Below the pieces are notes generated by a model. That model did no database searches, had not been told where the DNA came from, and saw only the letters and a list, made by a program, of their open reading frames with translations. The position numbers and the translations under genes are program-made. Positions 46,085 through 49,091 of a DNA stretch of 49,091 bases are shown here, in pieces. This DNA is from Bacilli bacterium (GTDB lineage: Bacteria > Bacillota > Bacilli > Paenibacillales > KCTC-25726), in NCBI GenBank assembly GCA_036381315.1, contig DASVDB010000094.1, positions 1 to 49,091 on the forward strand. Direction: 5' to 3'. Each line of letters opens with the position of its first letter. Position 1 is the first letter of the stretch.

Positions 46085-47440
46085 GTGTTTGGGAAAAGAA
46101 GCGCCGTCATCTTATTTGCCGTTGCGTTAAGTTCGGTCGTTTTGCTCACGCAATTGATGGACCGCAATGTCCCCGGGAAAAATGCGCCGGCATCCGGAAA
46201 CGGGGCGAATTTGCCGGCTGATCCCGATATATCCAGGCAAACGGACGCGCCCCGGAAGTTGAAAGTGATCGTTTCCATGTCTCCCGACGAATTTTTTACG
46301 TTGCAAAAAATGAATCAGGTGTTTGAGCGGCAGCATGCGGAAATAACCGTAACCCTGGAAAATATAACGGATCGCAACGTGTATGCGCGGATGAAAGAGA
46401 GCGCCGCCGCCGGATTAGCCGATATTTTCCTGTTGGACAACGCCTGGGTCAGCGAATTTGCCGCGCTGGGCCTGCTCGCCCCGGAACCGGAGGCGGTTGC
46501 CGCGGGCAATACCGACAGCCGCCCGTTTGACCAATTGCTTGCGCAGGTGAAATGGAACGGGTTCAGTTGGGGAATACCGAAGGAGGCCGAACTGTACGTA
46601 TTGATCTGGAGCAAGAAAGCGTTTTCGGACAACCGGATCGGGCAGCCTCCGCAAACCCCGGCGGAGCTTTTGCAAGTCAATCAAAAGTTTGCGGAAGCTA
46701 ACGGCGCATTTTCCGGCATCTATGTGAATCCCGCGGACCCGTACGCATTTTTGACATTGGCCTGGTATATGCGCGCGCAATCCGCCGAAGATTCCGGGGC
46801 GCAAGCGGCTGCGGAAGCCGCGGGCGAACTCGGTCCGCTGGCCAGCTTGTATTTTCCCGACGGCAAAGCGGCCGGAATCTTGAAAAACTATTATCCCGGA
46901 ACAAATGATTTTGACCCGTGGGAACTCCTTGCCAGTGGGGAAATGCCCATGATGGTGGGGAAGGCCAGCGATTATTTGCGGCATTTGTCCGACGCGACCG
47001 CCTTGCAACCGTTCAACGCGGCGAAGGATAAAGAAGGGGATTCAGCCCCGGTCTTAACCGGCAAAAGTTATGTCGTATCCGCCTATACGGACGATGCGCA
47101 AACGGCGTTTTCCTGGATTTATGAAGCCGTGTCCGCCCAATATGAAGAGGCGGCATTGCAGGAAGCGCAAATCCTTCCGGCTTTGCAACATGTGTTCGGC
47201 GAACATTCCAGGCTGTATGGCGGAATCTTGCCGGGCTTGCGTCAGGCAATCGCATCAGGCGTTGCGCTGGCGGGAAATCCCGATTTGCCGGCCAAGCTGG
47301 CCGCGACGGAGCAAGCGGCGGCGGCATTTTACGCCGGGGGAAGCCCATGGCCGCAGCTTGCCGAAGAGTTTGACCGTCTCTGGCAAGCCCAAGCGGAACG
47401 GCAAAAGCCGCAACCTGCCGGAAATTCGGCGGAAAATTAA
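46085..47440 (+). CDS. Orphan extracellular solute-binding protein, family 1 type
   Basis: The 451-residue protein resembles ABC importer sugar-binding proteins. After a hydrophobic N-terminal segment (residues 8 to 23) comes KLKVIVSMSPDEFFTLQKMNQVFERQHAEITV, then MKESAAAGLADIFLLDNAWVSEFAALGLL and the hinge pattern FSWGIPKEAELYVLIWSKKAF. No cysteine follows the signal segment and none was seen in the protein, so it is membrane-anchored or secreted, not a lipoprotein. No permease or ATPase gene is next to it in the window, so its transport partner, if any, is elsewhere. The start is GTG at 46085 after GGGGAG. It ends overlapping the convergent gene by four bases. Confidence 0.8.
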   Translation: MFGKRSAVILFAVALSSVVLLTQLMDRNVPGKNAPASGNGANLPADPDISRQTDAPRKLKVIVSMSPDEFFTLQKMNQVFERQHAEITVTLENITDRNVYARMKESAAAGLADIFLLDNAWVSEFAALGLLAPEPEAVAAGNTDSRPFDQLLAQVKWNGFSWGIPKEAELYVLIWSKKAFSDNRIGQPPQTPAELLQVNQKFAEANGAFSGIYVNPADPYAFLTLAWYMRAQSAEDSGAQAAAEAAGELGPLASLYFPDGKAAGILKNYYPGTNDFDPWELLASGEMPMMVGKASDYLRHLSDATALQPFNAAKDKEGDSAPVLTGKSYVVSAYTDDAQTAFSWIYEAVSAQYEEAALQEAQILPALQHVFGEHSRLYGGILPGLRQAIASGVALAGNPDLPAKLAATEQAAAAFYAGGSPWPQLAEEFDRLWQAQAERQKPQPAGNSAEN

Positions 47441-48516
47441 AAGTCGAAAACGAGTTTCACCAGCAACTTGTTTTTCTCAATTTTAACTTCGGTCGCTCGA
47501 TAAAAAGCGACCAATTTTTTTATATAGATAGCCAAATCATATTTTTCTTCCAAAGAAGCGATGGTCGTTTCAGGCAATTCGTATCCGGCGAACGTCAAAC
47601 TGTCGATCAGGAAAAGAATGGAGTTTTCCGGTTTGTCGCGTACGACATAATGGCCTGTTATCACCATCTCGCGATCGTTTAGCGTGCCGGTGAGCGTCAG
47701 CGTTCCGTCGCCAAAGGCGATCGTGATGCGCTTGAATTTTTCGTCTTTCTCCCGCAGAAAAGCGTTCAATTCGCTTTCCGCAAGCTCCAGCGTAATGTCC
47801 GATCCGGCAAACTTTAAACTTGCGCCGTGCTCGTTCAAATAATCGGGAAGCAAATCCATCGCCTGCGTGAACGTCGCCAGATATTCGTTGAACTGCGGCA
47901 GCCCGTCTTTTTCCCATGTTTCGTTCAATTGTTCGATTTGCCGCCGCAACAGTTCGGCGTCGTTGCGCCGCACAAGCTCTTTGTCCAGTTCATTTTGCAA
48001 TTCGACGAGGTGTTTGCGCTGCGCCAAAAATTGCGCTTTGACCTGCGCCAATTCATGCAAAGTTTCATCCAACCGCTCGTTCGCGGCGGCGATTTCCCGC
48101 ATGCTGTCGGCATAACCGTTCAGTATTTTCCGGTCACCATCGAGGATGGCGTTTAAATAGTTGTAAATGAGAAGCAAATCGTGAAAGTTTTGCGCGTAAA
48201 AAATGAACAGCCATAAGTTGTCGCGCTCTCCCATATAATAGGCCCGCAGCACATTTCCAGCCGCTTCGCGTCTGATTTTGGTCTCGTTTTCCAAAGCGGC
48301 GATCTCTCGTTTGTTGGCCGCGATTTTTTCCATGACTGTTTTTTCGCTCGCGGACAGCCGCTCGACTTCCCGGTCGATTTCGTTAATCGTCAGCCCTTTT
48401 TGCAACAATTTTTTTGTGTCATCCCATGATGTGTCCGCGGTTGAATTTGTTGCGTAAGCCGATGCGATAAAAGTGAACGCTAAAATTGGCGGCAGCATTT
48501 TCAACAGCAAACGCAT
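47437..48516 (-). CDS. Exported coiled-coil protein of unknown function
   Basis: I do not recognise a named family. The 359-residue protein has a signal peptide (residues 1 to 22, ending near SAYA). A long coiled coil of about residues 40 to 210 resembles the N-terminal parts of PcsB and CwlO (EIDREVERLSASEKTVMEKIAANKREIAALE). The C-terminal 130 residues are beta-rich with ITLELAESELNAFL and GTLTLTGTLNDREMVITG. This pattern recalls YpmS-like (DUF2140) or other lipid-binding domains, by inference only. No peptidase motif is present. The ATG at 48516 follows GGGGGAG five bases upstream. It is co-directional with the next gene, 39 bases upstream. Confidence 0.75.
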   Translation of the reverse strand: MRLLLKMLPPILAFTFIASAYATNSTADTSWDDTKKLLQKGLTINEIDREVERLSASEKTVMEKIAANKREIAALENETKIRREAAGNVLRAYYMGERDNLWLFIFYAQNFHDLLLIYNYLNAILDGDRKILNGYADSMREIAAANERLDETLHELAQVKAQFLAQRKHLVELQNELDKELVRRNDAELLRRQIEQLNETWEKDGLPQFNEYLATFTQAMDLLPDYLNEHGASLKFAGSDITLELAESELNAFLREKDEKFKRITIAFGDGTLTLTGTLNDREMVITGHYVVRDKPENSILFLIDSLTFAGYELPETTIASLEEKYDLAIYIKKLVAFYRATEVKIEKNKLLVKLVFDF

Positions 48517-48555: not shown

Positions 48556-49091
48556 CTATTGATTCAATAAACGCAAAACGTCGGCAAACGGCTTCGTGTT
48601 TGTGGGGATTTCCATCGTAAAAGCCGGATTTTGGTTGATATCGTCCGTTTGCAAGGCCAAATCCAGCATCATGCTTCTTGTTTTGCCGTCTTTTGGCGGC
48701 AGATTCAATGCCAAAAACACGTTTTCCTTGCGCACAAATCCTTCCTCGTCAATCGCCAGCTTCAAGACGGCCGGTTGTTGCAACTCGCTGCCTTTTAACA
48801 GTTCGGCCCAATCTTTAAGCGGCAATTGGCCGCGAAACGGCTGATCGGCGGTTGCGTTTGCCTGCGTTTGCAGTAAACCGGCTGTTGCGGAAGCGACAAA
48901 CTTGCCCCAATCCGCTGGCTTGATCTCTGCCGTAATGCGGTTTAGTCCATCATTTGCGGAGTCTTCATTCTCATGGCGGAACCATTTGGGATCCATCGCG
49001 TCCAGACTGATTTTCATGAACGCCGTGATCGCCTGCGAAGTTTGCTTGACGACCTCGGGGTTCAAGGAATGGTTTTGGTTTGCCGATTTCG
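48556..49091 (-). CDS. Hypothetical exported protein, 5' truncated by window edge
   Basis: The frame is open to the window edge, and the TTG at 49065 is internal, so the N-terminus lies outside. The visible 177 or so residues contain KWFRHENEDSANDGL, then a repeated pattern of short strands and turns (KPADWGKFVASATAG and LPLKDWAELLKGSELQQ). No cysteine or known motif is seen. It stops 39 bases before the exported coiled-coil gene on the same strand, so they probably form an operon. A role outside the membrane is inferred from composition and the neighbour, not shown. No function is assigned. Confidence 0.65.
   Translation of the reverse strand, partial: KSANQNHSLNPEVVKQTSQAITAFMKISLDAMDPKWFRHENEDSANDGLNRITAEIKPADWGKFVASATAGLLQTQANATADQPFRGQLPLKDWAELLKGSELQQPAVLKLAIDEEGFVRKENVFLALNLPPKDGKTRSMMLDLALQTDDINQNPAFTMEIPTNTKPFADVLRLLNQ

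Follow-up and report, generated by a model that had tools for sequence, protein, structure and literature searches.

What does a protein do that carries the coiled coil of a cell-wall hydrolase regulator but no hydrolase? This question is raised by a gene in a stretch of 49,091 nucleotides (the window), which is one entire contig (C94, DASVDB010000094.1) of the 2.8-Mb draft genome of a bacterium of the class Bacilli, order Paenibacillales (GCA_036381315.1). The gene lies on the minus strand and encodes 359 amino acids (aa). A preliminary description, made from the DNA letters alone, took the product to be an exported PcsB/CwlO-like coiled coil with a possible YpmS-like lipid-binding end in place of the peptidase domain. 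Our analysis places the protein in an unnamed, widely conserved family with a new architecture, in which a PcsB/EnvC-type coiled coil precedes what is very probably a TULIP lipid-binding-type domain. We give an even chance to the view that it is a secreted, non-enzymatic factor of wall hydrolysis with a lipid-binding-type domain; the architecture is well supported, and the mechanism is one that we infer.

An apparently exported protein with a PcsB/EnvC-type coiled coil

At the N-terminus of the 359-aa protein, an A-x-A site comes after a hydrophobic segment. We applied a crude hydropathy test for export with a threshold of 2.0, which 41 of 45 family members exceeded; the window protein scored exactly 2.0, on the threshold, and is among the four left uncounted. 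By the same crude test, none of the 45 has a lipobox, and none has a membrane segment further along the chain. These sequence features suggest that the protein is apparently exported.

An AlphaFold model of the whole protein (predicted local distance difference test score, pLDDT, 87.8; predicted template modelling score, pTM, 0.71) revealed helices at residues 29-94, 99-106 and 111-182, followed by an additional helix at residues 187-230. A Foldseek search with this model gave EnvC (8tzl) as its top match (E = 5.9e-4, probability 1.00), the sole one at E ≤ 0.001. PcsB (4cgk) and RipC (8idc) were also matched, with probabilities of 0.98-1.00 and template modelling scores of only 0.36-0.38 by query length, and an entry of the SteB-RipA complex stood at rank 45.

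The sequence pointed in the same direction. We built a profile of 30 family members (A1), among which CC_PcsB was the commonest Pfam match, found in 18 at E ≤ 0.1 (best E = 6.5e-6); the next family, Mis12, matched nine. CC_PcsB was also found in all six scanned members from outside the class. Within the hairpin, the conserved motif VLRAYYMGER has invariant Y93 and Y94, and V89, R91, G96 and R98 are conserved at 90% or more. When the own genome was searched with the family profile, one other place matched (E = 1.1e-5, nine candidates scored), namely a hydrolase adjoining ftsE-ftsX with CC_PcsB at 67.3 bits and M23. A scan of genome contigs with the single sequence as query gave no match. By computation, the N-terminal coiled-coil hairpin is of the PcsB/EnvC type; the likeness to PcsB had been proposed in the preliminary description.

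No Pfam or NCBIfam model scored above its cut-off for the window protein. The absence of a peptidase was confirmed in that no peptidase model appeared among its Pfam matches at E ≤ 10, and the NCBIfam scan returned only the coiled-coil stretch of RipA (E = 8.6). Membership of the PcsB/CwlO-type hydrolases was not found for the window protein, which has no catalytic domain and a CC_PcsB match (residues 72-141, 16.4 bits) below the 27-bit cut-off. Sequence searches of the PDB with the window protein, A1 and two further profiles, A2 (the C-terminal domain, 45 sequences) and A3 (the upstream lipoprotein family), yielded nothing at E ≤ 0.01.

Like the PcsB/CwlO-type hydrolases and RipC, the protein appears to be secreted and has a coiled-coil hairpin with CC_PcsB and Foldseek matches; unlike them, it lacks a peptidase domain and carries a TULIP-like domain in its place. 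EnvC and SteB, like it, have a coiled coil but no hydrolase activity themselves, and they dock on coiled-coil partners in wall hydrolysis. The last domain of EnvC is a degenerate LytM domain; that of the window protein is the TULIP-like domain. Non-catalytic coiled-coil regulators have two precedents, EnvC (PMC7668044) and the SteB-RipA system (PMC9897464).

The C-terminal domain is very probably of the TULIP type

The beta-rich region expected from the preliminary description was present in the model (residues 233-359). Residues 228-359 predicted alone gave a pLDDT of 90.7 and a pTM of 0.79. We ran VIA-align 2 over Foldseek's 1000 best chains for this C-terminal model, and rows 1-7 were TULIP entries only: BPI (1bp1; Z = 7.9, root-mean-square deviation 3.5, 125 aligned residues), CETP (2obd; 7.5, 3.5, 126), YceB (3l6i; 7.1, 4.2, 121), BPI (1ewf; 6.1, 3.9, 120), P47 (6ekt; 6.0, 4.4, 123), LBP (4m4d; 5.8, 3.8, 120) and P47 (5wix; 5.6, 4.7, 123). 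These rows cover 120-126 of the domain's 132 residues, and the first unrelated row, a small heat-shock protein, had a Z of 4.7 over 60 aligned residues. The best matches are those of a lipid-binding-type fold, as had been suggested, rather than of a fold unrelated to lipid-binding families. YceB, BPI, CETP, P47 and LBP share the fold of the domain; they differ in architecture and were not found by sequence. The absence of an SMP chain from the VIA-align 2 rows excludes nothing. Foldseek itself gave nothing at E ≤ 0.001 for the C-terminal model, and we set aside its top rows (Argonaute-complex SPARTA chains, small heat-shock proteins and sliding clamps), none of which reached that level.

Two motifs had drawn attention to this region, ELNAFL and LTGTLND (residues 275-281). 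Both sit at conserved positions and are therefore not mere chance: the domain consensus around ELNAFL is DxELNxFLRxK in A2, and F268 and G277 are invariant across the 30 members of A1. On the strength of the models, the C-terminal domain is very probably a TULIP lipid-binding-type domain, with the elongated alpha/beta tube of that superfamily.

Sequence kinship to the C-terminal half of LmeA

The Pfam family LmeA (PF11209) matched 17 of the 45 C-terminal domains at E ≤ 1 (best E = 1.2e-4), and the next family matched two. In six members examined, two of 10 in one scan and four of six outside the class, the match extended from positions 88-100 to positions 213-216 of the 217 of the LmeA model. 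In the other direction, two proteins retrieved by profile A2 scored 48.6 and 61.2 bits with the LmeA model, above its cut-off of 27.3 bits. These matches support kinship to the C-terminal half of LmeA, visible through the relatives and not in the window protein.

DUF2993 is the present-day LmeA family. Levine (2019, PMC6791001) assigned the TULIP fold to DUF2140 and, within DUF2993, to the C-terminal half, ahead of which stands a Chorein-N-like half. In the six members examined only the C-terminal half of LmeA aligns, and LmeA membership by both halves was not found; where LmeA has its Chorein-N-like half, this family has the PcsB-type coiled coil. Two frames of 163 aa in a further family (f16; L081 and L084) match LmeA positions 94-216 below the cut-off, in genomes that also have DUF2140; they are perhaps another small TULIP protein.

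Distribution and conservation

We surveyed 198 genomes of the order and found the gene in 196, in single copy in 194 of these and in two copies each in G091 and G123; identity was 30-40% among the matches listed. The two genomes without it were G161 (78% complete) and G027, which at 1.4 Mb and 91% completeness retains ftsX and spoIVA. One homologue (L048, G079:C1:1576553-1577611) has an in-frame TAG, and its 297-aa frame ends inside the TULIP-like domain; from its sequence it may be a pseudogene or a sequencing error.

Profile A1 matched 210 of 398 genomes of the class. The full-length protein was present in at least 78 of them (38 of the order, 35 of family f32 and five of four further families), and the other A1 matches outside those groups end before the C-terminal domain, among the matches listed; weaker full-length relatives may exist beyond these. 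Applied to 398 genomes of the phylum, profile A2 matched 51, of which 44 lie outside the order. Thirteen of the 44 were inspected: 11 had a full-length coiled coil and C-terminal domain (five in family f156, six in f104), with A1 domain E-values of 1e-20 to 2e-29 in a small database, and the remaining two were LmeA proteins of ~240 aa. Because the members in f156 and f104 are full-length, the architecture extends beyond the class. We found no description of a coiled coil joined to a TULIP domain in the open-access literature on TULIP and DUF2993, judged by titles and abstract beginnings among the matches listed.

This conservation bears on one alternative, that the protein is a degenerate hydrolase which has lost its peptidase and ends in an unrelated beta domain without lipid binding. 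A PcsB-like coiled coil without a peptidase is what such a loss would leave, and lipid binding by the domain is only predicted. We nevertheless regard a degenerate hydrolase as highly improbable: the C-terminal domain is kept across the order and in distant families, and both the fold and the link to LmeA point to lipid binding.

Relation to YpmS

The preliminary description had compared the C-terminal end specifically with YpmS (DUF2140, PF09911). We compared the 45 C-terminal domains by hhalign with 10, and then 16, of 30 YpmS loci, the rest having been dropped by selection rules, and used 23 other families as decoys. With the domain as query, YpmS scored 14.7 and 14.0, and decoys reached 19.7; in reverse, YpmS scored 21.7 and 17.9, and decoys reached 23.4. 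The reverse YpmS alignment was the longest, at 111-113 columns against at most 74 for decoys. With scores no better than the decoys in either direction and no Pfam match, the specific kinship was not borne out and we rejected it as an assignment; as judged from the profiles it is unsupported by score and not disproved, and the common TULIP fold type stands. The two share an exported TULIP-type domain in Bacilli (Levine 2019, PMC6791001, for DUF2140) and a complementary spread by family. They differ in that the sequence match is not above decoys and in that the 16 YpmS frames, at 190-235 aa, are too short for the coiled coil of this family.

This complementary spread was pronounced. None of 40 genomes of the order, the own genome included, matched DUF2140 at E ≤ 0.001. 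Among the matches listed for the 398 class genomes, DUF2140 occurred in 156 and the full-length family in 78, with no co-occurrence against 30.6 genomes expected if the two were independent. Such avoidance, together with the TULIP type that both domains share, is what would be seen if the protein took the functional place of YpmS, the TULIP protein that other Bacilli have, and its coiled coil were an extra. Yet the split follows taxonomic families, none of which has both among the matches listed, and may for that reason go back to one or two ancestral events; on the same matches, both are absent from 164 of the 398 genomes; and the sequence profiles fare no better than decoys. A stand-in for YpmS is, in our judgement, unlikely.

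Neighbouring genes and the question of lipid transport

The preliminary description had named an unrecognised, probably exported partner gene upstream. That frame (48556-49091) is real, although incomplete since the window is a whole contig, and its relatives are lipoproteins of 308-428 aa (start codons guessed) with no Pfam or NCBIfam match common to more than three of 19 members. We surveyed neighbours at 37 loci chosen for diversity. A homologous lipoprotein was found at 19, adjacent at 18 and with an intervening gene at one (L036), which upholds the proposed two-gene unit in part; it was lacking at 17, comprising seven of 22 loci of the own order and 10 of 14 testable loci of other families. 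One locus (L135) was left out because its contig ends there. The lipoprotein is an old but dispensable neighbour. Its profile A3 gave the highest reverse score against the TULIP-like domain among the 23 decoys (23.4 over 67 columns), which is not significant.

In all five genomes of f156, a LysM protein of 323-326 aa lies downstream of the gene on the same strand after a gap of 119-138 nucleotides. Three of these five were scanned, and in addition to three LysM stretches they contain Hydrolase_2, the Pfam cell wall hydrolase of the SleB type. This neighbour, from distant relatives, is all that directly ties the gene's context to wall cutting.

These neighbours bear on a further alternative, in which the protein carries lipids and its coiled coil is only a spacer that acts as a rigid stalk or brings about oligomerisation. 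The protein would move lipids or lipid-linked polymers, such as teichoic-acid precursors, across the gap between membrane and wall without any part in hydrolysis. The TULIP-type domain would suit this, and the lipoprotein at 19 of the 37 loci could hand over the lipid. LmeA, the sequence relative, helps mycobacteria under stress to keep the mannosyltransferase MptA and the lipomannan that it makes (PMC7643837), and a role in polymer synthesis stays a rival for this reason. On the other side, the lipoprotein is lacking at 17 loci, the coiled-coil sequence is closest to PcsB (18 of 30 members against nine for the next family), the family profile matches only the FtsEX-linked hydrolase elsewhere in the own genome, and f156 has the LysM-hydrolase neighbour. 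We consider a carrier role somewhat unlikely.

A possible role in lipid-dependent wall hydrolysis

We return to the reading that we prefer, a secreted non-enzymatic wall-hydrolysis factor. After export the protein would stay between membrane and wall, where by analogy with EnvC and SteB its coiled coil could dock on a coiled-coil partner of wall hydrolysis, either FtsX or a hydrolase through its own coiled coil. The TULIP domain would hold a lipid, or an envelope polymer by its lipid end, with phospholipid, the undecaprenyl carrier and a teichoic-acid anchor as candidates, and the protein may in this way position or gate wall hydrolysis according to membrane lipid. Where present, the upstream lipoprotein could be an auxiliary membrane-anchored partner. 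A bolder version would see an ancient Bacillota family of PcsB-type proteins with a TULIP domain where the catalytic domain would be, in which a wall hydrolase or the FtsEX switch is gated directly by lipid occupancy (for example by the undecaprenyl carrier or a teichoic-acid anchor); this we hold to be doubtful.

Several observations weigh against a role in wall hydrolysis or against the domain assignments behind it. CC_PcsB scores in family members were at most 25.1 bits among the matches listed, under the cut-off of 27 bits. The VIA-align 2 list for the whole model was filled by unrelated helical proteins, the p85 coiled coils of PI3K (Z = 12), so that the coiled-coil fold by itself is non-specific; we set the p85 likeness aside as generic helices, and the coiled-coil sequence is more specific to the PcsB type than the fold. 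For the C-terminal domain, VIA-align 2's own note warns that Z < 8 may be mere arrangement, and a TULIP structure was absent from Foldseek's best 50 rows; the doubt from the Z scores is reduced because independent sequence evidence points to LmeA. Nonetheless, LmeA scores of the members were at most 22.9 bits among the matches listed, against the curated cut-off of 27.3 bits. The LmeA match was missing in eight of 10 members in one scan and in two of six members outside the class, and the window's own C-terminal domain had none (E ≤ 1, or E ≤ 10 for the whole protein). The LmeA model gave no match above cut-off in 61 class genomes, and none in the own genome. No LysM pattern was found in the downstream frames of the six f104 genomes, and the hydrolase neighbour was seen in one distant family only, not being noticed at Bacilli loci, where frames were labelled by clusters and not all identified. 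Finally, FtsEX in the own genome already has a dedicated coiled-coil-M23 hydrolase partner; therefore, FtsX need not be the partner of the protein studied here.

Co-occurrence with FtsEX had been put forward as a check. FtsX was indeed present in all 40 genomes of the order searched, but these include one without the studied gene, and the co-occurrence is uninformative.

A sporulation role was also considered, the surroundings including a gene for a YhcN/YlaJ sporulation lipoprotein and an rsfA-like gene (named by eye). The gene spoIVA is lacking in eight of the 198 genomes of the order, all of which carry the studied gene, and G027 shows the reverse. We rejected the sporulation role as unneeded for explaining the gene. 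The eight genomes all belong to genus g18 (G021, G068, G078, G086, G106, G114, G152 and G197), and the other 190 have spoIVA.

According to Levine (2019, PMC6791001), TULIP domains in single-membrane bacteria are unable to move lipid from one membrane to another, and they may serve in lipid capture or export. For their role in such bacteria this family offers an answer that can be tested, a coupling of lipid sensing to wall turnover, in that a near-universal protein of the order joins a TULIP-type domain to the kind of coiled coil that wall-hydrolase regulators have. If this is true, wall cutting follows membrane lipid supply, and the bacteria carrying the family may link membrane lipid to cell-wall control.

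Features of the locus

The 359-aa frame starts with an ATG at 48516, preceded by the ribosome-binding-like GGGGGAG, and its stop codon occupies 47437-47439. An in-frame TTG upstream would lengthen the protein by 10 aa if used. Table 1 gives the features of the locus.

Table 1 Features of the studied gene and its upstream neighbour in the window
Feature	Position	Strand	Basis
Whole gene: apparently exported coiled-coil and TULIP-like protein, 359 aa	47437..48516	(-)	Frame, order survey, 30-member profile, model
Putative signal peptide, residues 1-22, probable cleavage after ASAYA	48451..48516	(-)	Crude hydropathy and A-x-A test; no lipobox
Coiled-coil hairpin, residues 29-182, CC_PcsB-like	47971..48432	(-)	Model; CC_PcsB matches; Foldseek EnvC, PcsB, RipC; own-genome profile match
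Conserved motif VLRAYYMGER, residues 89-98, in hairpin within CC_PcsB match	48223..48252	(-)	30-member profile
Additional long helix, residues 187-230, joining coiled coil to C-terminal domain	47827..47958	(-)	Model
C-terminal TULIP-like domain, residues 228-359, probable kin to LmeA/DUF2993 C-terminal half	47440..47835	(-)	Model, VIA-align 2, LmeA matches
ELNAFL motif, residues 249-254, first helix of TULIP-like domain	47755..47772	(-)	Model, domain consensus
C-terminal part of upstream lipoprotein, unnamed family, cut by contig end; 39 nucleotides before gene	48556..49089	(-)	Frame and relatives

The gene context in Bacilli (phoH, rsfA and midA, names by eye) gave no functional hint. In f104, CcdA-like and thioredoxin-like genes (named by eye) lie near the homologue at several loci (L165, L166 and L155-L161 except L158), occupying the region where f156 has the LysM hydrolase. 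In the window, a convergent gene on the plus strand (46085-47440), whose end overlaps that of the studied gene by 4 nucleotides, encodes a 451-aa exported protein that by eye is solute-binding-like and has no Pfam match at E ≤ 0.01; its cluster was found at 15 of 21 loci.

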